Shown one piece after another: positions 1,622 to 22,989 of a stretch of DNA of 22,989 bases. Position 1 is the stretch's first letter, and every line of letters starts with the position of its first letter. Made by a program: the position numbers and the translations under genes. The notes below the pieces were generated by a model. That model was not told where the DNA came from. It was given only the letters and a program-made list of their open reading frames with translations, and ran no database searches. The stretch comes from a virus: positions 1 to 22,989 of IMG/VR virus record IMGVR_UViG_3300031673_004195; one strand, 5' to 3'.

Positions 1622-2347
1622 ATGGGCGACATGACTAAGGCACTTCTAGCGAAAAAAAAGGAACAGGCTATAGACCGAGCGACTGAAGTTGAGCTTCAGG
1701 TATTGGATACGGCTCATGCGTTGTCTGAGGAAGTGCTAAAATATTGTGTTAAGGAGTTGCAGACGGAGGGTTCTACATGGAACAGGCTTCGTCGTAAGCT
1801 TGGGCTTGAGCCTCAGGAGCATTCTTGGCGTATGCTGAAGGATACCTTGTGTAGTTCAGTGATGCCAGAGACCGAGGAAGAGGCATTCAAGGCTATGCAG
1901 CACAACACTCAGGATATGGTTGTGCGGATTGAGGGTGTCTTGGATCAATTGCATGATCGGGTGAGACAGGCATACGGGAATAAAGAGGAGCCTGCTATGT
2001 TTAAGGTCCAGTTGGATGCGATGAAGCTACATATGGAAGCCCACCAGAAACGATTTGAACATTTCTTAAAGATGCGTGAGATGAAACTGACTGATCGTCA
2101 GAAGCATGGAGCGTCGATTATATTCCAACAGAACTATTTTATACCTAGACCAGGGCAGAGAGATGCTTCTGGTGGTGTGAAGTTTGTTGATGGGAAACCT
2201 GTTATAGACTTGGAACAAAACAACCAAATAGAGGAGGGCTCACAAGATGGCCAAATCAAAAGTAAAAGCAAAAAAGGTAACAAAGTCAAAAAAGGCAAAG
2301 AAAGTAGCAAAGCCAGCGAAAGCGAAGAAAGCTGCAAAGAAGATTAG
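1622..2347 (+). CDS. terS: Terminase small subunit (probable)
   Basis: A 241-residue protein, called small terminase because it lies just before the large terminase and has the expected size and build. The subunit binds the packaging start site as a ring and hands DNA to the large subunit. Residues about 10-60 are helical with basic patches (KKKEQ, NRLRRKLG). The middle (about 80-165) is long and helical, ending KMREMKLTDRQKHG, as for an oligomerisation domain. The C-terminal 35 residues are a low-complexity Lys/Ser/Glu tail. AGGTGA directly abuts the ATG at 1622, and an in-frame ATG at 1631 is an equally plausible start. A run of eight A lies at 1652-1659. The last 101 bases are shared with a lysine-rich micro-gene in another frame. 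No clear sequence motif proves the function, so the call rests on position. Confidence 0.7.
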   Translation: MGDMTKALLAKKKEQAIDRATEVELQVLDTAHALSEEVLKYCVKELQTEGSTWNRLRRKLGLEPQEHSWRMLKDTLCSSVMPETEEEAFKAMQHNTQDMVVRIEGVLDQLHDRVRQAYGNKEEPAMFKVQLDAMKLHMEAHQKRFEHFLKMREMKLTDRQKHGASIIFQQNYFIPRPGQRDASGGVKFVDGKPVIDLEQNNQIEEGSQDGQIKSKSKKGNKVKKGKESSKASESEESCKED

Positions 2348-2354
2348 GAAGTAG
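2247..2354 (+). CDS. Lysine-rich histone-H1-like micro-protein overlapping terS
   Basis: A 35-codon frame lying +1 relative to the small terminase and sharing its last 101 bases. It has a textbook ribosome-binding site, GAGGAGGG, eight bases before the ATG. The product starts MAKSKVKAKKV and ends KKAAKKIRK. Of 35 residues, 17 are Lys and one Arg, with no acidic residue; the rest are mostly Ala and Val plus Ser, Thr and one Pro. The AKPAKAKKAAKK pattern is like the tails of histone H1 and bacterial H1-like proteins. It may bind or condense DNA or neutralise charge in the head; this is inference from composition. Its TAG overlaps the GTG of the next micro-gene by one base. An alternative is that this frame gives an alternative basic tail to the small terminase through frameshifting. 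Confidence 0.6.
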   Translation: MAKSKVKAKKVTKSKKAKKVAKPAKAKKAAKKIRK

Positions 2355-2455
2355 TGCCTAGCATTACTTACCCCATGCTCGTATTCATAGCGATAGCTTT
2401 CGTGGTGATTGTGGGCGGGTCTTACCTTCTAAGAAATACTCCCCTGGGCTGGTGA
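2354..2455 (+). CDS. 33-aa membrane micro-protein 1
   Basis: A short frame between the two terminase genes. The GTG at 2354 overlaps the TAG of the preceding lysine-rich gene by one base, with AGGA a few bases upstream; an internal ATG at 2375 would give 26 residues. From that ATG the product reads MLVFIAIAFVVIVGG, a strong transmembrane helix. It ends with a short SYLLRNTPLGW tail whose Arg suggests an N-out, C-in orientation. A second micro-gene with one membrane span follows after four bases. Two adjacent single-span peptides might be holin-like or spanin-like lysis parts, or membrane anchors, but neither has a lipobox or another diagnostic motif. The role is unknown. Confidence 0.5.
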   Translation: MPSITYPMLVFIAIAFVVIVGGSYLLRNTPLGW

Positions 2456-2459
2456 CCAA

Positions 2460-2558
2460 ATGATGCCTGGGTTTGACTGGAGATATGATGGGCCACTACT
2501 ACTATCGTTGGTTGTGGTGGCCTTAATCTTTTTGGCAATAGGGATAGCTATAAACTAG
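2460..2558 (+). CDS. 32-aa membrane micro-protein 2
   Basis: A 32-codon frame starting with two consecutive ATGs (2460 and 2463). GGTGA is upstream and fits the second ATG better. The product has a short polar head, PGFDWRYDG, and then a hydrophobic run from residue 12 to the end (LLLSLVVVALIFLAIGIAIN), with no cytoplasmic tail. Its TAG is embedded in the TAGGAG ribosome-binding site of the large terminase gene, so translation of the two may be coupled. Like its upstream partner it is unassigned. The tandem arrangement of two membrane micro-genes with opposite designs suggests a two-component membrane function. Confidence 0.5.
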   Translation: MMPGFDWRYDGPLLLSLVVVALIFLAIGIAIN

Positions 2559-2564
2559 GAGAAT

Positions 2565-3908
2565 ATGGAAACAGTCATCTCAAACTACAAACCTACTGCG
2601 CCTGCCATGAAGCTACATTCTTCTGACGCTAGGATTATCGTGTGCGTTGGTGGTCTAGGTTCTGGTAAGAGCTTTGCCGTAGTTAAAGAGATTGAGCAGT
2701 CTGCTATCCAATGGCCGAAGATGCCAATGGCTATGTATCGTAAGACCATGCCTGCTTTGCGAGATTCCACCCTAAAAGAATTTATGAAACATGTGGACCC
2801 AATCCTGGGTAAATATAAGTATAGGGAAGATACCTTTAATTTCTTGGGTGATTCCTATATGAACTTCCGTGGACTAGATGAGGCTACTAAAGCTAAGTCT
2901 ACCAACTACGCCCTGGTAGTTATGGAGGAGGCTGAGGAGTTTACGATTGAGGAGTTCCGTAGGCTGAACGAACGGATCAGGGAAAAGGGAGATTGGCCCC
3001 TAAGATTGATATTAGTATTGAACCCAGTTGATGAAGAACATTGGATATATGACCAGTTCGTTCAGAACAAGGCTGCCTGGGATGCTGTTGGTGGGTGTGA
3101 AGTTATCCACTTTTCTACCTACGATAATATAGAAAACCTACCAGAAGGGTATATAGATCAGGTTACTGTTGGCATGACGGCCGATGAGATCGACAGGTAC
3201 ATCAATGGTAACTGGGGAACCCTTCAAAGAGGGGAGCCAGTCTTCTCTAAGATGCTTAGACCTGACCTTCACCTGAGGAAAGTTGACCTAGAAATAGGCA
3301 TGATCCTACTAAGAGGGTGGGATTTTGGGTTCAATCACCCTGCCATATCCTTTAGGGTGGTGGATAAACTAGGAAGAATGAATACCAAACATGAAATGTT
3401 GGGCGATAAAGAGGACTTAATCGACTTCGCACCTAAGGTTTTGCACAGAACCAACTTGCTTTTCCCCCCAGATATGCCTGTATTTGACTTCGGAGATCCC
3501 CGAGGTCACGATAAAGCACAGAATGGTAAGGGTACTTGCTTTGAAACACTCAGAGAATTTGGGATTCATGCCATTGGTGAGCGTGGATCTAGGGAATATG
3601 TTGAAGAAGGCATCCGTCAAATGAAGAAAGAGTTCTCAACATTGATAGAAGGGGTGCCAAAACATACTATTGACCCCTCATGCACCATACATAGAGCTGG
3701 ATTCTTTGGAAAATACATCAGAGACTTGGACGGAAGACCTAAGAAAGATGGGTATTATGAACATGTGATGGACTCTTCACGCTACATTAGTCATCATCAT
3801 AAGCAAGCAGATGCAATTGCAAACGCAATAACCCAGTCTAAGGTAGCTAGACAATCAAGGAACGTCCTTAAAAACCGATTTACAGGATACGGGAGACATA
3901 ATGGCTAA
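2565..3908 (+). CDS. terL: Terminase large subunit (ATPase and nuclease)
   Basis: A 447-residue packaging motor of the PBSX-like Terminase_3 type. It uses ATP to drive DNA into the prohead and cuts the concatemer. The ATPase half shows Walker A GGLGSGKS (29-36), Walker B YALVVMEEAEEF (115-126) with its catalytic acid pair, and the coupling motif LVLNP (150-154). The RNase-H-like nuclease half shows GWDFG (Asp253), FDFGDPRGHD (308-316) and a third acidic site near HVMDSS (Asp403), followed by HHHKQADAIANA. The start has an AGGAG box six bases upstream. Length and motif order are normal for the family. The 3' end overlaps the portal gene by eight bases. Confidence 0.96.
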   Translation: METVISNYKPTAPAMKLHSSDARIIVCVGGLGSGKSFAVVKEIEQSAIQWPKMPMAMYRKTMPALRDSTLKEFMKHVDPILGKYKYREDTFNFLGDSYMNFRGLDEATKAKSTNYALVVMEEAEEFTIEEFRRLNERIREKGDWPLRLILVLNPVDEEHWIYDQFVQNKAAWDAVGGCEVIHFSTYDNIENLPEGYIDQVTVGMTADEIDRYINGNWGTLQRGEPVFSKMLRPDLHLRKVDLEIGMILLRGWDFGFNHPAISFRVVDKLGRMNTKHEMLGDKEDLIDFAPKVLHRTNLLFPPDMPVFDFGDPRGHDKAQNGKGTCFETLREFGIHAIGERGSREYVEEGIRQMKKEFSTLIEGVPKHTIDPSCTIHRAGFFGKYIRDLDGRPKKDGYYEHVMDSSRYISHHHKQADAIANAITQSKVARQSRNVLKNRFTGYGRHNG

Positions 3909-5994
3909 ACGACCCCTCGACTATAACTGGGCTAAAGATAAAGAATTTTCTGCCTCGTTGGGTATTAACTTACCGTCGATATTAAAAGAACTCGAATCTC
4001 AAAGAAGAGAGCGAGAAGAAGTTTGGCAAGAGTCTTATCGTGCCTGGTCAGTAGATCGCACTGGAGCAGATAAGAACTATAACGGGATGGCTGACTTACA
4101 GATCCCTCAGTTAAGAAAAGAAATCGAAACAATGTCCCGCCGAATTTACAAAGGGATGTTGCCTGAAGATTACCTAAAGGCAGAGCCAACAAGTTTTCAG
4201 TACACTGATTTAGCTGAAGTAAACATGCAGTTAGTCCGTCACTATTTTGATAACATCATCAAGTTTAAAACTGTTGCAATGCCTTGGATTAAACAAGGTG
4301 TTACATTCGGAACAAGCCCTATCAGATCCTTCTGGCATAAAGAAGAAAATGAAATGATGTTTAAAAAGCGCGATCCTAAGGTTAACGCTTCTGGAATAAT
4401 AGAGTTTAACTCTAGAGATGTTAGTGAAATGGTAACACTTTATAACGGACCAAAAGTTCGCTCTGAAGATATTTTTAATACCTATGTCTACCCACACAAC
4501 GCTGCAAGATCCGAAGATATTGAAATGGTTTTCTGGAAAACTAAAGTTAGAAAACATGCGCTTAAGAAAAAGGCAGCAGATGGAATGTGTGAGGGCTTTG
4601 ATGAGTTCAAAGACACAGGCAAAAAAAGAGACACATCTGATTACAAAGCCGAGGAGAGACTATTACAGTTTGGTGACTCAGGTTTATTCCTAGCTCTGGA
4701 TGGTGATGAATATTTTGAAATGGTAGAGATCTGGTGCAAGCTGGTTCTTCCAGGCAATGACTATCCAGTGTCATGTGTTGTTGAGATTATTAATGGAGCA
4801 TACGTTACGAGAGTACAAAGAAACCCATATTGGCATCAGCAAATCCCCTACGACTTCTTTAGATTCATAACGCCCCTGCCTGGAGAATACTATGGAAGAG
4901 GATTACCTGAGGCAGCGTCTTCACTACAGCATCAGCTAGACGACACAATGAACCAGACAATGGATTCAAATACTCTTAGACTTAACAACATTACAATCAT
5001 CAACCCTGCCTACGCCCCGAACTCAGATTCTTTTGAGATCGAACCGAATGCAGTTTGGTGGGCAGATCCGAACGCCGTAAAACAATTGGAGTTCCCAGAT
5101 CTGAGCACTAGTGGTTTCCAGGCCGCAGGAGCCCTCAGGAACATGATTTCAGAACTTTCCGACAATCAGCCTCAACTTCCAGATCCTATCGCTGGTAAGG
5201 CTCGTAGCACCGGACAAGCGCAAATGGCGATTAACGAATGGCAAACAGATTTATTCACGTTCATCGACTTTGCTTGCGAAGACGCTTTAAATTCTCTAGC
5301 CTACAAAACACACCTATTGATCCAACAAAACATAAAGGATGATGAGGTGATAAAGATCACTGGCAGGTACGCAAACACCTACCTAGAGAGATATGTTACT
5401 GCCAATGAAGTCGTTGGCCAGTATAGGTTTAAGTGGATTGGAGCTCTCCAGATAGAGAACGTAGCTATCAGGACTCAGCAGATCTTAAACTTCCTTAAAC
5501 TATACCCGACTCTACCACCAGAAGCACAAAGCAAGATCAGTCTTCAGTGGGAGAACTTAATCATTAAAATCATGCGCGATGGATTCAACATTAAGGACAT
5601 CGAGAACATAATAGAAACCAGCAAGATGAAGGCTTCTACACCACCATCCCTTGAGGAAAAGATCCTTAAGCTTGGCGGTAAGATTGAGGTTAATGAGTCA
5701 GATGATGATGAATTACACATCAGATACCATGAGCAGCAGCAGTTAATGGATAAAGATATTTATACAAAGGCAGAGAGGACTAGACACAACCTCGCTCATA
5801 GAGAACAATTGAAAAATAAACAGGCGGCAGCCCAAATGATGCAACAACAAATGGCGGCCATGCAGCAAGGGCAACAGCAGCAAGGTCCGTCAGCAAAAGG
5901 AACACCTGGAATGATGCCACAGGGAGCACCGATGTCGGATGCTATAAACCCAGGGGATATGAACAGGGGAATGCGAGTAGAAAATGGAATCTAA
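3901..5994 (+). CDS. Portal protein
   Basis: A 697-residue protein forming the dodecameric ring at the packaging vertex, through which DNA enters and leaves. The length and several blocks match large podovirus portals of the P22/SU10 kind: GEYYGRGLPEAASSLQHQLD at 328-347, a Met/Asn/Thr-rich helix after it, and QPQLPDPIAGKARSTGQAQM at 423-442. The N-terminal region up to about 130 is helical and charged, with PWIKQGVTFGTSPIRSFW near 128-145. The last 60 residues are a Gln/Met-rich low-complexity tail (QQQMAAMQQGQQQQG) ending in a Gly/Pro/Met stretch. The start ATG lies inside the terminase gene and overlaps it by eight bases. The position directly after terL supports the call. Confidence 0.93.
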   Translation: MAKRPLDYNWAKDKEFSASLGINLPSILKELESQRREREEVWQESYRAWSVDRTGADKNYNGMADLQIPQLRKEIETMSRRIYKGMLPEDYLKAEPTSFQYTDLAEVNMQLVRHYFDNIIKFKTVAMPWIKQGVTFGTSPIRSFWHKEENEMMFKKRDPKVNASGIIEFNSRDVSEMVTLYNGPKVRSEDIFNTYVYPHNAARSEDIEMVFWKTKVRKHALKKKAADGMCEGFDEFKDTGKKRDTSDYKAEERLLQFGDSGLFLALDGDEYFEMVEIWCKLVLPGNDYPVSCVVEIINGAYVTRVQRNPYWHQQIPYDFFRFITPLPGEYYGRGLPEAASSLQHQLDDTMNQTMDSNTLRLNNITIINPAYAPNSDSFEIEPNAVWWADPNAVKQLEFPDLSTSGFQAAGALRNMISELSDNQPQLPDPIAGKARSTGQAQMAINEWQTDLFTFIDFACEDALNSLAYKTHLLIQQNIKDDEVIKITGRYANTYLERYVTANEVVGQYRFKWIGALQIENVAIRTQQILNFLKLYPTLPPEAQSKISLQWENLIIKIMRDGFNIKDIENIIETSKMKASTPPSLEEKILKLGGKIEVNESDDDELHIRYHEQQQLMDKDIYTKAERTRHNLAHREQLKNKQAAAQMMQQQMAAMQQGQQQQGPSAKGTPGMMPQGAPMSDAINPGDMNRGMRVENGI

Positions 5995-7421: not shown

Positions 7422-8645
7422 ATGAGCGCACAATTACAAAGTAGCTTCAGTGCCAACGCCCAAACATACATTTCGGCGCAGACACTAAAGCGAATTAACA
7501 GAGACGTTATCGTTTACGGTATGGGTAAGAAAGAAAAACTACCTGAGCGATTTTCAAAAACATTCCAATACACTCGTTATGAGAAATTGGATCTTCCATA
7601 CTCTGCACTTTCTGAGGGCGCAACCCCTACAGATAACGCGCAGATGTCCATCTCTACAGTTTCGGCTGTGATGGATCAGTGGGGAGATTTTATCAATCTT
7701 TCTGATGTAGCTGTTATTACTGCGAAGCATCCATCCCTTCAAAAAGGTATCGAGCTTTTAGGTGAACAGGCTTCAGAACTTATTGATAGAGAGTGCATCA
7801 AGCTTTTATTGTCTAACACGAACGTATCCTACGGTGGCGTAGCTACTTCGCGTGTTACTTTACAAGCTGGTGAAGTATTGTCATCTACAGTAATTAAAAA
7901 AGCTGTGGCTGCCCTACGAAACCAAGGTGCTCGTCCATCTTCTGGCCGTCACTTCTCTGGTCTTCTTGATCCTTCAGTGGAACAAGATGTTATCGGAGAC
8001 GCCACATTCCTAAACGCAGCACAATATTCAAATATCAGCGCACTACAAAATGGTGAAATTGGTCTTTGGCAGGGTGTTCGTTGGATGTGTTCTAACTTGT
8101 TACCTTCTATGTCTCGTCTAGCAGATACTTCTGATGGCGCGGCTGATGGCGGTAACTTAGCTAACTCAACTTCTTACTTCTACCAAGTTGTTGCTGTTTC
8201 TAACAGCACTGGCTTTGAGGTAGCTAGTACACAAGTTATTACTCAAGCGACTGGTGCTGCTGATGAATCGGTAACGATTGATATGCCAGCTACATCGGGC
8301 TTTAAGTACAATGTTTATTTCGGAGACTCCGCAATTACATTGAAACTATCTAGCTCGTTGAACCTACCAAGCGCGTCAGTAGTAGTGACTGATGTTCCAT
8401 CAAGCGGAGCAACTCCACCTGCATATCCGAATACAGCCATCATTGCACACAATGTGTGGATCATGGGTGATGAGGCATTTGCAGTACCAGAGCTTATGAG
8501 CCTTCAAACCTTCATTACTCCTGCTGGAGCTTCGGATTCAGATCCTTTAGCACAGCGTCGTAAAGCTGGTTGGAAAGTTATGTTCAAGCCCGTTATTTGT
8601 AACGAGGAATTCCTTGAACGTATCGAAGTAGTAAGCGCATATTAA
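7422..8645 (+). CDS. Major capsid protein, N4-gp56-like, with inserted beta domain
   Basis: A 407-residue HK97-fold shell protein. Residues about 30-230 fit the N4-gp56 family pattern: YSALSEGATPTDNAQMSIST (60-79), DQWGDFINLSDVAVIT (85-100), GIELLGEQASELIDRE (109-124), LLSNTNVSYGG (129-139) and QNGEIGLWQGVRWM (209-222). Residues about 245-336 interrupt the fold with a Thr/Ser/Val-rich beta segment (YFYQVVAVSNSTGFEVAST) that looks like an immunoglobulin-like or fibronectin-type domain. The capsid fold then resumes at IAHNVWIMGDEAFAVPEL and ends FKPVICNEEFLERIEVVSAY. The start has AAGGAG seven bases upstream. A GC-rich hairpin follows the gene. The insert probably decorates the outside of the shell; this is inferred from its position in the fold. 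Confidence 0.93.
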   Translation: MSAQLQSSFSANAQTYISAQTLKRINRDVIVYGMGKKEKLPERFSKTFQYTRYEKLDLPYSALSEGATPTDNAQMSISTVSAVMDQWGDFINLSDVAVITAKHPSLQKGIELLGEQASELIDRECIKLLLSNTNVSYGGVATSRVTLQAGEVLSSTVIKKAVAALRNQGARPSSGRHFSGLLDPSVEQDVIGDATFLNAAQYSNISALQNGEIGLWQGVRWMCSNLLPSMSRLADTSDGAADGGNLANSTSYFYQVVAVSNSTGFEVASTQVITQATGAADESVTIDMPATSGFKYNVYFGDSAITLKLSSSLNLPSASVVVTDVPSSGATPPAYPNTAIIAHNVWIMGDEAFAVPELMSLQTFITPAGASDSDPLAQRRKAGWKVMFKPVICNEEFLERIEVVSAY

Positions 8646-8699: not shown

Positions 8700-9035
8700 A
8701 TGGCGAAGAAAGTAAAGAAAGCAGTTAAAGTAGAGGCTGTTGAGACTACTGAAGAAGTGGTCGTTAAGGCTCCAGTTAAAGAGGCAAAAGGCCTGTCAGA
8801 TGACGACATGGTTACTATTGAAATTCCAGTTCACGTTAAGATTGCTGGAGTTAGATTACAACCAGGCGTTCATAAAGTACCGAGACACCAAGCTAGAGAT
8901 ATAGCTTCTATTGCAAACAAAAAGATGTCAGCAGATTTGCACGCTCTTTCTGTTACCAGCAAAAGCTACCTAGTTAATAGAGCGTTGAACGGGGCTATCA
9001 ATGTTAGAGAAGTAGACGACATTAAACTAAGATAA
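8700..9035 (+). CDS. Small head-tail region protein, unknown
   Basis: A 111-residue protein. The start at 8700 is chosen because AAGGGGA lies six bases upstream; an upstream in-frame extension would run through the capsid hairpin. Residues 1-37 are a low-complexity Lys/Val/Glu/Ala stretch (AKKVKKAVKVEAVE). The rest is a compact domain: MVTIEIPVHVKIAGVRL, then PGVHKVPRHQARDIASI, and a C-terminus ending REVDDIKLR. I do not recognise the fold. It is the first gene after the capsid and leads the connector block, so it may be a minor virion or head-completion protein. The flexible charged N-terminus may be removed or act as a tether. Confidence 0.78.
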   Translation: MAKKVKKAVKVEAVETTEEVVVKAPVKEAKGLSDDDMVTIEIPVHVKIAGVRLQPGVHKVPRHQARDIASIANKKMSADLHALSVTSKSYLVNRALNGAINVREVDDIKLR

Positions 9036-13200: not shown

Positions 13201-13414
13201 TACCTACGTTGATGGCGTTCTAGTTGAGACTAAATCATTTGAAGCATATGGTGATGGTGATACTGACTTTTCAGATCAGCCTTTGAAGTTAAACAGACTC
13301 TTTCCATCGGGAAGACAACGAGGGAGAACAGTACGGAAAACACTGAGAACATCGTCAAGGATAGCAATAGCGGGATTTCAACTAAACTACAGTCCGGAGA
13401 AAAGAAGGATATGA
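10202..13414 (+). CDS. Tail nozzle / DNA-stabilisation-like protein (probable)
   Basis: A 1070-residue protein, mostly beta and rich in Gly, Asn, Thr and Asp. By position after the adaptor it should be the nozzle or tail-tube component of a short tail (equivalent to T7 gp12 or P22 gp10) that plugs the DNA channel. The N-terminus (FSGINRNIDREKLSPANLHS then KNLWEKRLNVLETRGGSEEF, about 13-53) fits the start of such proteins, where a 'no-fault' Gly-Gly or Arg-Gly turn follows a Leu/Asn block. Near residues 820-833 VYVIRGDGEPTPIG resembles a propeller blade. The C-terminus is basic (SGRQRGRTVRKTLRTSSR). It is longer than most nozzles, so extra domains are likely in the middle. It overlaps its neighbours by one and four bases. 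Confidence 0.7.
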   Translation: MQEKEVSFPIESFSGINRNIDREKLSPANLHSAKNLWEKRLNVLETRGGSEEFATFPPNVSKVLKLKKLYKSNGENVRIAAIRCDRNVNPLIYELNLAFDTTPSSGSFYIQIGDDITGAIEWDVADLGVAIQGELQALDGLSGATASGSYGGGIVMRFLAESLTGEFTIVNNTLDFGGPVGTSMYETSPYLLADLPTGFAISFVNDASGYWNKNRLFALNYISGPDLYVRFIGYGWEQWYRTPASSVSGYAGATDQRLVVTITQEMNENITGYEIYSNTNCGSTVTPVYQAMWVGYKNLIGVASATHDWRNVPLGQSGTVTTGTEVGFTKRSYVGTPFGDETGGNLQCGKTYYVAILPHHIKMQADGTQRCCYRSPNSLRVGDSSVTAVYVPGTGNTGLITIPGIDALSITLLVAIGESPDLLQPYQIFNNVTTSGLSITELPETGNPGVIDIYAEGNNNYTYQFRFADISLYDMLAKISDDGTVAPVFCGRGNKNVNDSNFAGASFACEYYIYNNVAGRQYAANMGKSSKYSLEQNGDMLFLTNGYDVANIPDNPFGSPGYFHRTNTNYFQTDGNVAATVIQDFYERSANVTFTASTDLVNLNSNRLRNGDMVRFTEINTTTGIVVYDGTPATIYFVRDKTNDTFKVSLTLGGAAINLVGDGTGIAVLPQPSATLPIFKYISQFQGSILLSGGYETIDPITLSKNSAAQNTYFSQALNPNAFTIPGYSIYQTISVKDDAEEITGIGIYSNSTGQEGPISQLLTTKKNKLYVLNGLPSSTGGVLDPSVKQVVLSAKIGCVNQDCIINTTMGTVIVDVDDVYVIRGDGEPTPIGREIYPILKKANLSNAQAVFHDKHVKISFYHEDYDPNNLGAGINNVEFWLDVNKLIEQKGVSSWVGPMIGHWNQACIVEDRDDDVGDYRYCCEGNDIDNAPRIYRTDIEPSESATCVGDFGVLMESEISTKDLEITPQDNNWNKLIKRTYWKLKIQNGSQEAADIEEDTYVDGVLVETKSFEAYGDGDTDFSDQPLKLNRLFPSGRQRGRTVRKTLRTSSRIAIAGFQLNYSPEKRRI

Positions 13415-13866
13415 AGGGTGTTAAGGTTGTTAGAGCGAAGGCTTCTAATGCCATTGATGTCTACCCACTCCTTGCAGCGGCAGTAAAAGAGGGAGCCTTT
13501 GAAGATACTCCTAATGGGCGCGAGCTTAAGCTGTACTACTTTAAAGCAATGATTGAGGAGCTGGCTCACCCAGGACATCTTTGGTATGTGGCCAGAAGAG
13601 GTCGGGGATTTATTGGATTCCTTCATGCGGTCTGTGTGCCTGGCCGCTGGAATGGCAGGCTGGAAAGCATGTACATAGACATCATCTATGTAGATCCGAA
13701 GTATAGAAAGCGCGGCATATCAGGGAAACTCATTGAAGAACTGAAGAAAGACGCCGATCATATAGGCATTAGTAAGGCAACATTTTCTTGCCCTGATGAG
13801 CATGTTAAGGCTTTTAAAAAGTTCGGTGCTGAAGTCACCAGAACAGTAATGAGGGGGACACTATGA
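13411..13866 (+). CDS. GNAT-family N-acetyltransferase
   Basis: A 151-residue acetyltransferase that would move an acetyl group from acetyl-CoA to an amine. The CoA-binding motif A is clear: IDIIYVDPKYRKRGISGKLI (89-108), with the R-x-x-G-x-S core at Arg99, Gly102 and Ser104. The N-terminal strand and helix (VVRAKASNAIDVYPLL) and the C-terminal AFKKFGAEVTRTVMRG pattern are typical. The substrate is unknown. It overlaps the nozzle gene by four bases (ATGA) and the next gene by four, so it is translated with structural genes. That is an unusual place for an enzyme and suggests modification of a virion protein or of host proteins late in infection. Confidence 0.9.
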   Translation: MKGVKVVRAKASNAIDVYPLLAAAVKEGAFEDTPNGRELKLYYFKAMIEELAHPGHLWYVARRGRGFIGFLHAVCVPGRWNGRLESMYIDIIYVDPKYRKRGISGKLIEELKKDADHIGISKATFSCPDEHVKAFKKFGAEVTRTVMRGTL

Positions 13867-16476: not shown

Positions 16477-19400
16477 ATGGGGCCAGCTTTTGAGGAAAAT
16501 GACTTAGGATCAGAAGACGCTATCAGGGGTCCTGCGCTTTCTGGTTTAGACGCTCTTAATGACGAAGAGGAATACACACCCGACTTAGAAGATCCACCTG
16601 CTGAAGAAATTATACCTGAATTAGATGAGCCCATTAGGGACAAGGGTATAAGTCTTGAGCAGGCGGCTCAGCTATACGGACAATCTAATTCATTGTCCGA
16701 AGCAGATCTAGATCGCCCAGAGGGAGTAACTCTCGAAGAGGCCTCTCAGGTGATGGAATCAGGCGTTGCCCTTAAGGACGGGGCAACACTGGAGGAGGCA
16801 GACAAGCACTACGCTATGCAGGCCTTGTCTGGAAGAGAGTCTGCTCAGTTGAGAAAAGACCTTGGCGATGGAGAAGTTACTGTTGCCTCGGCCATGAACA
16901 CCATGAGAGCGAGAGGTGAATACTTTAAGCGCGACCATGGCTGGCTTGATACCGCAGGATATTATCTTGGCATCCCTCAGATGGCTGCAACAAGAGCAAC
17001 CGTAAATCTTCTCGAGAACTTCGACCTTCTGACGACAGAGGACGCTAAAGACCTTCTCTCGAGAGACGAGATTCTTCCTTCAGATCTCGTAAACTTTTAC
17101 ATTAAGAACCCAGAGGATACATCTCAGAAGGTTGGCCGGTTTATGGTTGGACTTGCTGCTGACGTACTGCTTGATCCACTAAACGCCTTAAGCTTTGGCT
17201 TGGCCGGAGCAGCAAGGAAAGCTGTATTTGGTGGTGGCAAGGTCATCAGCAACTTGCAGAAGATGGCGAAGACTGAGCGAAGATGGGTTAAGTCCATTGA
17301 AGCTGTAGATAAAATAATTACCTCTTCGAATGATTTAGAGGACGTGGTGAAACACGCCGATGACATTGAGGCTCTATTAGACAAAAGACTTTCCTTCAAC
17401 GACTTCATCATAAATGGAAAACACTCAAAGGAAACTAAGCTAGAGCTGAGGAAGACCTTTAGAGAGATGAACACTGGGAAGACCATGGGTCAGGAGTTCG
17501 TAGACGGTGAGAGAGTTGTCAAGATTGGCTTCAGGATTCCTTTCACTAATATGGCTAAAGAGTTTGAGGCTCCGCGCTTGGCAAATCAGGCTTTCGGCAA
17601 AGCAATAGGGGTAGTTCCCTATCTTTATGACAAGGTTAGAGGGGCGGTTATGTCCACGAAGTCTGGGCAAAGGCTGTGGAAGAACTTCTCGCCGGAGACA
17701 TTACTTACGAGAACAGGGAAGCACCTTGTAGATTTCCAACAGCAGCAGTTCTTGGGCAAGCTCGCACTTCGTCGACACACGATGGGGCAGTTTGAAGATA
17801 AGCACAGGACAGCCCTGAAGATAATACAAAATTCTATTGGCGACGAAAAGAAGTTCGATGGCCTGCTTAAGGATCTTTCAGACGAGATTGAGCTGCGCCT
17901 GTTAGACCCCGCCGAGTTTATAGAGAGAGGCTTTAAGCCTTATCAGGTAGACAAGGGTAGAATAACAACCACTTCCCAGAAAAATAACACTTCCTTTAGA
18001 GATGCTTTTTTGAGTGTTGATTTCACTAGGCTGAAGAAATTCCTAGGAGATCCTTCCGATGTCCAAGACATCAGGGGCGGGAAGATAACTATAAGCCGAT
18101 TCGACAAGGGAACTGATTTCGAGTTTGTCCTTACTGAAAAAGGAACAACCAGAGTTATCGGTAGGTTGAACGGCAGCCTCCCGAGCAAGCTATCTCCAAG
18201 AGGAAGTATCTATGGCGGAGCTGTCCACCAAGATTATGCAGGGCAGGGTCTTGGAAAGCTATTATATAACAACGCATCGTCAAGTGGAGTGAACTTAGCT
18301 TACGGTAATTTCGTATCTAAAAACGCAAAGAAGACACGCCTATCATCTATCAGAACTCACAACCAGCCTATCACGGGGACAAAGGATTGGGACGCGCTAG
18401 TTCTCGGTAAGGGTACGGAGAGCGAAGACATCCTCAGGTATGCGAGACTTGAGAAGCACCCAGATATGCTAAGGATTGTTGATGAGCACATTGAGATTAA
18501 CGGTGCGCTTATAGACGAAATAAGGAAGCGCGGCATCCCTTTCGACCAGCTTAAGTATTCTGGCCCAGGATCGGCGAAGAACTATCTAAAGCACATGCTA
18601 TCTAATGAGTTCTTTGAAAAGATGAAGGTTAATAAAGAGGTTGGTGATGACGTAGAGTTGGCACTGGATTTCCTTTATAAGAATGTTGGCGGAGTGTCTG
18701 GTACAGAGCGTGGCAGACAATACCGTGGTACAATCCAGGCCGCAAACGAAGCGTCAATGGACAAGCTTGGCGTTAAAATATTCGTTGATGATCCTATTGA
18801 ATTGATAGCTCGAAGATCTATGGAGATGGAGAGGCTGGTTCAGTCCTACGATCTGATGGACGCAGCAGCAACTTACGCTGTGAAAGGAAAAGCACCAGGC
18901 CCACAATGGACACAGTTCGATCCTGCGGAGTTTAATAAATTCATAATGCGAATGGATGGGCAACTAGCTTCCGGCACAGCCAGCGGCCTCTCAGAGATTT
19001 CTGTGGGCAAGCTGGATCAATGGAAGCATTACGTTCCACCTTTCTTTAAAACCGACGAGAAAATATTTTTGCCTTACGATGTCTATGACCGTTTATTATA
19101 TCAAATAAATGGACACCAGCTTAACACAGGGGTCATGTCTATCCTGTCAGGGATGGAAGGCTACATGAATGTCTTTAGAAACTCTGCTTTAACAAGTATC
19201 CCTTATCTTATGAACAACGCCATGGGGAATATGCTTATGCATCTAACTAACAATGGCTTGTCTGGAGTTAGAGGTATGGGAAAAGCCATGAAGTTGATGA
19301 TTCATCAGGCTGGGGAGTACCAGCTCAAGCATCACAGTGGAAAGAAGTTTATGATTAGCGGCGAGCAGCTAATGAAAGAGGCTATAGAGGATGGTGCCTT

Positions 19401-20988
19401 TAATGCTGGATTATCTGGTGAGTTTAAGTTTGCGCCACTTGCGCAAGACATAGCCTCAAACAGAGAAGCTGCTAAGCCTCGGATGGAGAAGCTAAAGAAC
19501 ATAGGAGACTATGCTTTCTTCTGGAGACAGAACAGGTATATCGCGGAGAAGTCAGATCAACTACCTAAGCTTGCAACATATATAACAAGAAGAAGTCAGG
19601 GCTTTTCTAGGCAGGCGGCTGCCGAGTTAGCTGACAGGTACTTCTACACTTTTAACATGGGCTCTCGTAACCAGGACATAATGGCTCGCGCTATACCCTT
19701 CTCCAAGTTTCCGATGAAAACTTTTGAATATGTCATGGATGAAGTTAGGGATGGAAATCTAGCCAAGCTTGCCGTTCCAGCTAAGGTTAGAAATATGTTC
19801 GAGGGAACATATGTTGAAGATCCAGAGATACGCGCTGGACTAGACAAGGCCCTTCCAGAGTATTCGGCAATAAGACAGCCTATCCTTGGAGAGATGTTCC
19901 CTGGCGGAAGAGAGATCCTCATGGAGATCCCATGGGCGGCCACAACAATGAGCTTATTATTCAATCCACTAGAGTCTGAGCATCCAATGTCTGCGCTTGT
20001 TCATGGAGCCATGTCTTTATTAGATCAGACTTTCTCCGAAACAGAGGATCAGTACGCCGATATCACTGATGCTGATGCGATCAAGATGGTAAAAGAGCAG
20101 GCCTTCATGTTCCTGCCTTGGTATGTAAAAGACTGGGCTACAATTCAAGACTTGAAGGACAATACTTTTGGCGGCTTCTTCGCAGATCAGCACAAGCCAG
20201 AGCTTCCGCAGGGAAAGGACAGGTCCAAAGAGACTATCTTTGAGACAGATAAAAATGTTCGTGCCTTGAGGTTCGATAATTCTGTTGAGTTTGCCGAAGC
20301 CATGTCCCACTCATGGCTTTACAAGATGTATTTTGGAGATGATAAAGATAATCTCGGCCCATCAGGAGATCAGGAAAAAGCAGGTAAGGGTGAGTTCATC
20401 CGTAAGAAATTTAGAAGTCTTACTGGTGGACTGGGCACGATGACGAAGATGGACCAGAACATCTTGTTCAATCAGCTAGCAATGCAGTGGAGAATAAACA
20501 GATTAAGTAAATCTCTAGCCAAAGATATTAATGCCAACGAGCACTACATTGCAGATGGGGCTTTGTCCGACAAAAAATATCTAAAGAATCTATCAGAGAT
20601 GTATCCTCAGGCAAAAGAACTCCTTGTTGTTATGAAAAAACGTCAGGCTTTAACTGAGATGTACGATTTTATCCTTCAAGCTCAGGAGATTTCCCCCGAT
20701 GAAGATCTTATAAAGACTATATTTGGTGTGGATCATGTGAAGATGGATACAGCAGACGCGCCAATGGTTTATGATGAGATGACAATCCGTGCTAACCAGA
20801 TATCTGACGACCAGGCAGTGGACGTTATAGACAAAATAAGGCAGAGCACAATGGCTACGGACAATATGGACCCAGATCAGATTCAGAATGAGTATGAGCC
20901 TGTTGATGAGATTCCTTATGAGGAGCCCATGCAGCCAAGCGGAGAAGAAGAAGAGATAGATCTAATTAACGAAGTCTATAGTGAATAA
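16477..20988 (+). CDS. Giant internal virion / ejection protein with embedded GNAT-like segment
   Basis: About 1503 residues, the third and largest presumed ejection protein (like T7 gp16 in place and size). The start at 16477 is chosen over a TTG at 16474 because AAGGA lies five bases upstream. Both ends are acidic. Near the N-terminus three short repeats occur (GISLEQA 57, GVTLEEA 83, GATLEEA 102). Residues about 215-250 include an apolar stretch (GRFMVGLAADVLLDPLNALS) of the sort found in large phage internal proteins. About 535-650 resembles a GNAT fold: the core VHQDYAGQGLGKLLYNNAS (583-601) has the Q-G-L-G CoA loop. The C-terminal half contains FNMGSRNQDIMARAIPFSKF, a block I associate with this class. 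No transglycosylase or polymerase motif was found. Confidence 0.72.
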   Translation: MGPAFEENDLGSEDAIRGPALSGLDALNDEEEYTPDLEDPPAEEIIPELDEPIRDKGISLEQAAQLYGQSNSLSEADLDRPEGVTLEEASQVMESGVALKDGATLEEADKHYAMQALSGRESAQLRKDLGDGEVTVASAMNTMRARGEYFKRDHGWLDTAGYYLGIPQMAATRATVNLLENFDLLTTEDAKDLLSRDEILPSDLVNFYIKNPEDTSQKVGRFMVGLAADVLLDPLNALSFGLAGAARKAVFGGGKVISNLQKMAKTERRWVKSIEAVDKIITSSNDLEDVVKHADDIEALLDKRLSFNDFIINGKHSKETKLELRKTFREMNTGKTMGQEFVDGERVVKIGFRIPFTNMAKEFEAPRLANQAFGKAIGVVPYLYDKVRGAVMSTKSGQRLWKNFSPETLLTRTGKHLVDFQQQQFLGKLALRRHTMGQFEDKHRTALKIIQNSIGDEKKFDGLLKDLSDEIELRLLDPAEFIERGFKPYQVDKGRITTTSQKNNTSFRDAFLSVDFTRLKKFLGDPSDVQDIRGGKITISRFDKGTDFEFVLTEKGTTRVIGRLNGSLPSKLSPRGSIYGGAVHQDYAGQGLGKLLYNNASSSGVNLAYGNFVSKNAKKTRLSSIRTHNQPITGTKDWDALVLGKGTESEDILRYARLEKHPDMLRIVDEHIEINGALIDEIRKRGIPFDQLKYSGPGSAKNYLKHMLSNEFFEKMKVNKEVGDDVELALDFLYKNVGGVSGTERGRQYRGTIQAANEASMDKLGVKIFVDDPIELIARRSMEMERLVQSYDLMDAAATYAVKGKAPGPQWTQFDPAEFNKFIMRMDGQLASGTASGLSEISVGKLDQWKHYVPPFFKTDEKIFLPYDVYDRLLYQINGHQLNTGVMSILSGMEGYMNVFRNSALTSIPYLMNNAMGNMLMHLTNNGLSGVRGMGKAMKLMIHQAGEYQLKHHSGKKFMISGEQLMKEAIEDGAFNAGLSGEFKFAPLAQDIASNREAAKPRMEKLKNIGDYAFFWRQNRYIAEKSDQLPKLATYITRRSQGFSRQAAAELADRYFYTFNMGSRNQDIMARAIPFSKFPMKTFEYVMDEVRDGNLAKLAVPAKVRNMFEGTYVEDPEIRAGLDKALPEYSAIRQPILGEMFPGGREILMEIPWAATTMSLLFNPLESEHPMSALVHGAMSLLDQTFSETEDQYADITDADAIKMVKEQAFMFLPWYVKDWATIQDLKDNTFGGFFADQHKPELPQGKDRSKETIFETDKNVRALRFDNSVEFAEAMSHSWLYKMYFGDDKDNLGPSGDQEKAGKGEFIRKKFRSLTGGLGTMTKMDQNILFNQLAMQWRINRLSKSLAKDINANEHYIADGALSDKKYLKNLSEMYPQAKELLVVMKKRQALTEMYDFILQAQEISPDEDLIKTIFGVDHVKMDTADAPMVYDEMTIRANQISDDQAVDVIDKIRQSTMATDNMDPDQIQNEYEPVDEIPYEEPMQPSGEEEEIDLINEVYSE

Positions 20989-21387: not shown

Positions 21388-22989
21388 ATGGCAGATCAGG
21401 TAAAAGTAATAACGAGTGTAGCTGGAGTCTTGACCGTTGAGGTTGGACCCAACACTGTTATTGTACCTACATCCATTGGAGTTCGGGGAGCAACTGGTCT
21501 TACTGGTCCTGTTGGAACGACAGACCACTTAGCCTTAACAAATATCGGCACAAATTCTCATGCCCAGATAGATACACACATAGCTGACTCGAGCATCCAC
21601 TTCACTGAAGGTTCGATTTCTCATTTGAATATACAGGACATAGGTACAAACACACACGCGCAAATAGATACGCATGTGGCCGATGCTACTGTGCACTTTA
21701 CTGAGGCGAGCATTGACCATACAGCTATAACAAACATTGGAACTAACACCCACGCGCAAATAGATACTCATATTTCTGATGCAACTATTCACTTTGCACA
21801 AACAGCGATAGACCATACAGTGATACTGAACAGGGGGACTAATACCCACGCGCAGATAGACACGCACATTGCCGATTCCTCTATCCATTTTAGCCAGGGG
21901 TCGATAGACCATACTGTTATTCTAAATCGCGGCACGAACACTCATGTGCAGATTGATTCTCACATTGCTGACTCAACTCTACACTTTACTGAGGCGAGCA
22001 TAGACCATGTGAATATATCAAACACTGGTACAAATACACATGTTCAGATTGATACGCACATTGCTGACTCTTCTTTGCATTTTACAGAGGGCTCAATAGA
22101 CCATACTGCGATATCAAACATAGGAACTAATTCCCACCCTCAGATTGATACGCACATTGCCGACTCTAGTGTTCACTTTGTGGAGTCTGCTATAGACCAC
22201 GCGAATATATTAAGCATCGGCACAAATACTCACGCCCAAATAGATACTCACCTTGCGTTAGTGAATGAGCATCTTGATTGGTCTGCTCCAGGCGTAGGAA
22301 CAATCCACGCTTCTAATTATGTCGATAATAATATAACCGACCATACGGGTTTAACTTCAATAGGCACGAACACTCATGCACAGATTGACACTCATATAGC
22401 ATTAGTAAATGAACATTTAGATTGGAGTGCTCCAAGCGTAGGCACAATCCATGCGTCTAACTATGTGGACAACGACACTACAGATCACGGAGCGTTTTCT
22501 GGCCTAAGCGACGACGACCATACTCAATATGCACTTCTTGTTGGGCGAGCAACTGGACAAACATTAATAGGCGGCACAGGGGTCAGTGATAACTTAACTC
22601 TTCGTTCTACATCAAACGGGACTAAGGGTTACGTTTACATTGACGAGACTACTGCATCGACCTCGGTATCAACTGGGGCCTTGCGTGTTGGTGGTGGTGT
22701 TGGAGTTTTCGGCAGAGTAACTGCTAATGATTTCTCCTCTCCTGGTACTGGCTCACTTGCTGAGTCTTTTGGTGCTGGGGCTGGCACAGGTATCTATGGA
22801 GTTTGTGTTGCCGTTGGCGCATCCGCGCTCGTAATAGGTGAAAATGGAATTGCAATCGGTGGAGTATCAAGAGCTGGTCAAGATTGTATTGCTATTGGTC
22901 GCTCGGTAACTACAGGGACAGGATCTACTTCCTGTATTTCTATTGGACCAAGCTCAAACATTACGGCTGGAATAAGTGGCGGGATAGCT
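21388..22989 (+). CDS. Tail fibre / receptor-binding protein, 5' part (runs off the window)
   Basis: Open for 534 codons with no stop before the window ends, so only the N-terminal part is seen. It starts seven bases after AGAGG. Residues 1-47 include a short collagen-like stretch (GVRGATGLTGPVG). Residues 53-276 are seven tandem 32-residue units of the type IGTNTHAQIDTHIADSSIHF. Two 48-residue units follow (277-372), adding LVNEHLDWSAPGVGTIHASN. Then comes LSDDDHTQYALLVGRATGQT, a motif common in phage fibres. The end is a YadA-head-like region of repeated IAIG and ISIG steps. Trimeric fibre assembly and host binding are inferred; the receptor-binding tip lies beyond the window. Confidence 0.85.
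   Translation, partial: MADQVKVITSVAGVLTVEVGPNTVIVPTSIGVRGATGLTGPVGTTDHLALTNIGTNSHAQIDTHIADSSIHFTEGSISHLNIQDIGTNTHAQIDTHVADATVHFTEASIDHTAITNIGTNTHAQIDTHISDATIHFAQTAIDHTVILNRGTNTHAQIDTHIADSSIHFSQGSIDHTVILNRGTNTHVQIDSHIADSTLHFTEASIDHVNISNTGTNTHVQIDTHIADSSLHFTEGSIDHTAISNIGTNSHPQIDTHIADSSVHFVESAIDHANILSIGTNTHAQIDTHLALVNEHLDWSAPGVGTIHASNYVDNNITDHTGLTSIGTNTHAQIDTHIALVNEHLDWSAPSVGTIHASNYVDNDTTDHGAFSGLSDDDHTQYALLVGRATGQTLIGGTGVSDNLTLRSTSNGTKGYVYIDETTASTSVSTGALRVGGGVGVFGRVTANDFSSPGTGSLAESFGAGAGTGIYGVCVAVGASALVIGENGIAIGGVSRAGQDCIAIGRSVTTGTGSTSCISIGPSSNITAGISGGIA
21544..22503 (+). repeat. Coding tandem repeats: seven of 96 bp, then two of 144 bp
   Basis: The repeats start with codons for [IRT]GTN[TS]H at 21544, 21640, 21736, 21832, 21928, 22024 and 22120 (96-base steps), then at 22216 and 22360 (144-base steps). 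The protein sequence is well kept but the codons differ freely between units, for example Thr by ACA, ACG, ACT and ACC. The duplications are therefore old, or the DNA has diverged under selection that keeps the protein. They lie within the fibre gene and are not a non-coding array. Confidence 0.95.

Follow-up and report, generated by a model that had tools for sequence, protein, structure and literature searches.

How many genes are encoded at the end of the small terminase gene (terS) of this virus, and which of two overlapping reading frames there is the primary one? The window, i.e. the whole stretch of DNA analysed, is a linear viral contig of 22,989 bases with a head-packaging-tail module. 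A reading made from its sequence alone had pointed to a lysine-rich, histone H1-like micro-gene hidden in the 3' end of terS and read in another frame. The features on which the question turns are listed below.

1622-2347 (+): terS, small terminase subunit, assigned from its ORF, its position and 34% identity to an ORF overlapping terL in the relative L012
2230-2238 (+): Shine-Dalgarno (SD) box AGAGGAGGG of the micro-gene, top-ranked among 499 plus-strand ATGs
2246-2347 (+): 3' tail of terS over the micro-gene, probable passenger frame (alignment; codon z -3.41)
2247-2354 (+): lysine-rich micro-gene (ORF, shuffles, recoding, codon choice)
2354-2455 (+): ORF of 33 aa, single-span membrane type
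2460-2558 (+): ORF of 32 aa, single-span membrane type
2565-3908 (+): terL, large terminase subunit (PHROG, Pfam Terminase_3 and NCBIfam matches)
3901-5994: portal
7422-8645: major capsid protein

The terS product had no curated family match in PHROG, Pfam or NCBIfam, and its search against viral contigs and phages gave zero matches. Elsewhere in the window, a gene following the major capsid protein (8700-9035) begins with MAKKVKKAVKVEAVE..., a second Lys-rich N-terminus in the head module, and a Pfam search with it was without a match. A GNAT acetyltransferase gene (13411-13866) lies amid the tail genes, a weak GNAT-like stretch covers residues 548-600 of a 1,503-aa protein (16477-20988), and a tail-fibre-like protein at 21388-22989 carries many imperfect IGTNTHAQIDTHIADSSIHFT-type repeats.

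The product of 2247-2354 (+) is MAKSKVKAKKVTKSKKAKKVAKPAKAKKAAKKIRK, a peptide of 35 aa with 17 Lys, 1 Arg, 8 Ala, 1 Pro and neither Asp nor Glu. Its frame is +1 relative to the 241-aa terS ORF, and all but 7 of its 108 bases are contained in the 3' end of that gene. Both the Lys-rich frame and the Lys/Ser/Glu-rich tail which the same DNA encodes in the terS frame are present as first described. The likeness to a histone H1 tail is equally plain from the sequence, since the peptide is Lys/Ala-rich, acid-free and of low complexity, with KAKK and AKPAK patterns and Lys runs of at most two residues. Searches of Pfam and NCBIfam (E<=1) and of PHROGs (E<=0.1) returned no curated H1-like or other profile match for it. 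Copies of the micro-gene were the only Lys-rich ORFs (>=22 aa, >=28% Lys) found in the window and in loci L001-L021.

The micro-gene has a strong start signal of its own. The ribosome-binding box reported ahead of it was verified: AGAGGAGGG ends 8 nt from the ATG and forms a duplex of -12.5 kcal/mol with the anti-SD, ranking 1 among all 499 plus-strand ATGs of the window. An overprinted gene is expected to carry an independent start signal in the alternative frame, and AGAGGAGGG is such a signal, from which translation would be predicted. Promoter and terminator patterns around the terS/terL junction did not exceed chance level, and no Rfam or tRNA elements were found in the window. SD-like elements can also promote frameshifting in some genes, such as prfB, and the Lys-rich +1 frame does follow one; a programmed +1 frameshift would then yield terS with an H1-like tail in place of a separate peptide. 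However, a TAG at 2229-2231 closes the +1 frame, which leaves only the final codons ahead of the overlap, or the overlap itself, as places for a shift and makes a fusion to terS unlikely; a known +1 slippery site is not evident, and the box stands at initiation distance from an ATG. We regard frameshifting as highly improbable.

Base composition is a possible source of a spurious Lys-rich frame. The micro-gene stretch is 54% A and 9% T, and in such DNA both Lys and open frames are cheap in any frame; from its composition, some 12 Lys would be expected in each. The other two frames of the micro-gene stretch hold 7 and 10, and at least 17 Lys together with an open frame occurred in 0.0001 of dinucleotide shuffles (105 nt). 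When the terS tail was recoded synonymously, with codons drawn from the usage of the same phage, the +1 frame was open in 43% of trials, but reached 12 or more Lys in a fraction of 0.00009 and 16 or more in 0 of 100,000. In the converse test, with the micro-gene residues recoded by phage codon usage, just 0.4% of trials kept an open terS frame, and the open terS tail is therefore a matter of luck, of T-poor wobble choice or of selection. This is a hint that the terS tail is possibly constrained too.

Codon choice distinguishes the two frames. Where the two overlap, every Lys of the terS frame is AAA (10/10), every Ser AGY (7/7) and every Glu GAA (5/5); elsewhere in terS the corresponding counts are 7/18, 1/8 and 7/22, and the other genes of the window favour AAG, TCN and, slightly, GAG. 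The codon-choice score of the terS frame in the overlap (z -3.41) falls below all 1,153 of the 1,153 comparison windows, whereas that of the micro-gene frame (z -0.31) is ordinary. A-rich composition adds to the anomaly, yet it acts on both frames. Codon choice and recoding together give the alternative frame a coding signature beyond what terS demands, as would be looked for in an overprinted gene. Because the anomaly is confined to the terS frame, the primary frame is probably that of the micro-gene, with the terS tail as its passenger. The earlier picture of a separate gene inside terS hence stands in part: independent initiation is well supported by the rank of the SD, the frame-specific Lys content and the codon asymmetry, while the direction of nesting was probably reversed, given that terS-frame codons are aberrant and distant terS homologues end before the tail.

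The relatives bear on how this arrangement arose. The only close public viral contig spanning the junction (L002/L011) differs from the window at 5 positions in 15,509 bases, all five of them A/G transitions. Two fall in the 108-nt micro-gene (window 2247-2354 against L011:7-114), where one exchanges K for R and the other R for K; both are synonymous in terS, the second converting its stop from TAG to TAA. The share of differences lying in the micro-gene was considered as a sign of selection and set aside, as the L011 contig begins at position 2241 of the window and the counts are very small. Of transitions in the overlap, 17% would by chance leave the terS protein unaltered while being silent or a K/R swap in the micro-gene, so that the two swaps are weak evidence either way.

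These data speak to two alternatives. One is that there is no separate gene: the terS tail would be the true product, and the +1 frame would have arisen fortuitously in DNA that is A-rich, T-poor and partly repetitive. It draws on the composition, on weak 9- and 18-nt repeats at 2264-2305, on the rarity of an open terS frame given the micro-gene residues and on the synonymy of both L011 differences in terS; it leaves unexplained the first-ranked SD and the frame-specific Lys excess, the anomalous codons of the terS frame beside the normal ones of the micro-gene, and the missing tail of distant terS homologues, and is distinctly unlikely. The other is that selection maintains two functional products, a basic, Ser-rich terS tail serving in DNA contact or regulation and a separate Lys-rich peptide. 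The improbability of an open tail under recoding would fit, as would two changes that preserve terS residues while swapping K and R in the peptide, but two changes are few, the chance expectation for such transitions is 17% and terS homologues work without the tail; we hold this to be quite improbable.

Two further relatives, L003 and L004 (proteins about 85-92% identical), begin within terL. In more distant ones, namely L012 and L013 (TerL about 52%) and L015 (TerL 41%), terS is without the tail, the micro-gene is absent and terL starts inside the 3' end of terS, in +1 relative to it. The two tiny membrane-type ORFs (2354-2455 and 2460-2558) are likewise absent from that site in distant relatives. 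As regards conservation of both frames, the near-identical L002/L011 has the junction and the distant relatives are without the insertion. The stretch of about 0.3 kb with the micro-gene and the membrane ORFs therefore looks like an insertion at the junction in the lineage of the window; that it was gained there, and not lost in the others, is suggested by three relatives. The micro-gene would appear to occupy the start position which terL holds in these relatives, and its absence from them indicates that it is dispensable for the conserved packaging machinery.

No further junctions emerged from a portal alignment in genome contigs or from scanning viral and genome contigs for a DNA pattern of the TerL N-terminus, and no phage DNA similar to 2225-2575 was found. 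A search for the micro-peptide in the records of the distant relatives found none, such searches being weak for low-complexity sequence. As a separate observation, TerL in L013:378-2561 (+) and L016:29-1040 is split at Walker A (GGQG|C...HN|SGKS) by an intein-like insert. Within this insert, the strand opposite to terL encodes an HNH_3 endonuclease (L013:529-1230 (-), E 4e-11); the two contigs, 91% identical, keep both strands open.

Similar small ORFs recur in diverse, unrelated viral contigs. Viral contigs were scanned with the motif SD-ATG-GCN-K-x-K-x-K-x-K-K, which sets the class without implying homology, and 78 contigs matched, several of them near-copies of each other. They include 33 ORFs of at most 32 aa (12-32 aa) with 32-82% Lys, mostly 44-82%. 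Since the first 10 residues are set by the motif, Lys-richness is built into the shortest ORFs; in most of the 33 it continues to the stop. The micro-gene has the traits of the class, with an SD, a MAK start, a length within 45 aa and at least 30% Lys up to its stop codon. Contigs that have a match in pelagiphage HTVC027P carry short Lys-rich ORFs ahead of a phrog_32603 gene and GroES; other such ORFs adjoin an exonuclease gene, follow the portal or lie upstream of terL or of terS; that of L054 is just ahead of a head-tail adaptor gene, and L076 has one between protease and scaffold. Two annotated phage genomes with the GroES neighbourhood have short basic ORFs nearby, labelled hypothetical. 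This recurrence supports short polylysine-like phage genes being real, and carries no implication of homology or a shared role.

The micro-gene shares with these ORFs a GGAGG SD and an ATG-GCN start (MAK...). Unlike them, it alternates K with A/V/S/T/P in the manner of an H1 tail, where most of the others have long poly-Lys runs; it is also longer and almost entirely within another gene. A close parallel is L036, where a Lys-rich 27-aa ORF shares 80 nt with a terS-like gene and, as in the window, is +1 to it; its location, its SD and its overlap with a small-terminase-like gene at the end of that gene also correspond to those of the micro-gene. The terS of L036, however, is of HTH type and unrelated. 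In Desulfofustis phage OP947158, which has a relative of the L036 terS, terS abuts terL and there is no Lys-rich ORF. Once seen as strong convergent support, L036 was downgraded to weak after the recoding control, in which the Lys content of the +1 frame proved partly forced by an E/G-rich terS tail (P 0.18).

The main rival is that the micro-gene is a translational coupler, its strong SD and A-rich start loading ribosomes which re-initiate at TAGTG to the benefit of the genes as far as terL, with a product that matters little. The stop of the micro-gene indeed overlaps the GTG start of the 33-aa ORF (TAGTG), whose own SD is weak (-4.2 kcal/mol), and the Lys-rich micro-ORFs of L025, L066, L077, L092 and L096 (beside GroES) abut or overlap the next start. 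Nevertheless, an acid-free, H1-like pattern with 49% Lys over 35 codons is unnecessary for coupling, and terL is preceded by an SD of its own. We consider coupling rather unlikely.

Our preferred reading, held with moderate confidence, is that 2247-2354 may be taken as a true gene with its own initiation, acquired by insertion, whose basic, Lys/Ala-rich peptide of 35 aa would act as an H1-tail-like nucleic-acid binder. An insertion of about 0.3 kb, comprising the micro-gene and the two membrane-type ORFs, would have arrived at the terS/terL junction, with the micro-gene taking the +1 start site within the terS 3' end that serves terL in the relatives. The terS tail would be mainly a by-product, terS reading through the new gene as far as TAG/TAA. 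The peptide, comparable to the histone H1 C-terminal tail, would presumably act as a polycation that binds DNA, RNA or both irrespective of sequence. Its translation would be timed with the packaging operon, so that binding would coincide with expression of the packaging genes; the leading guess is that genome DNA would be condensed or neutralised near the terminase, and the peptide may be present in the virion. A broader claim, speculative and unlikely in our judgement, is that tailed phages repeatedly and independently evolve tiny polylysine-like genes, some overlapping terS, whose peptides would be co-expressed with the packaging machinery and serve as genome-bound or co-packaged 'phage protamines'.

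If expressed, the micro-gene would give a small example of a packaging operon in which a single stretch yields two low-complexity products, and would point to recurrent, mostly unlabelled Lys-rich phage peptides of 12-35 aa which tend to escape annotation. Tailed phages are generally held to neutralise their packaged DNA by cations and polyamines, a view which a phage-made polycation would revise for some phages. Phages that package by a motor have been distinguished from viruses relying on positively charged capsid domains (PMC7096446), and H1-like proteins with a profile match (PF07432) have been reported in moraphages, which are large phages (PMC12619734). Literature searches found no published descriptions of this micro-gene/terS arrangement. 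Bacteria have H1-like proteins as well, among them chlamydial Hc1/Hc2 and AlgP of Pseudomonas. Unlike H1-like proteins, the micro-peptide has only 35 aa, is unmatched by profiles and overlaps terS, and its DNA binding is something that we infer. In common with Hc1/Hc2, AlgP and the H1 C-terminal tail, it is Lys/Ala/Pro/Val-rich and acid-poor with KAKK/AKPAK patterns, and by analogy the same sequence-independent, polycationic binding would be expected of it.
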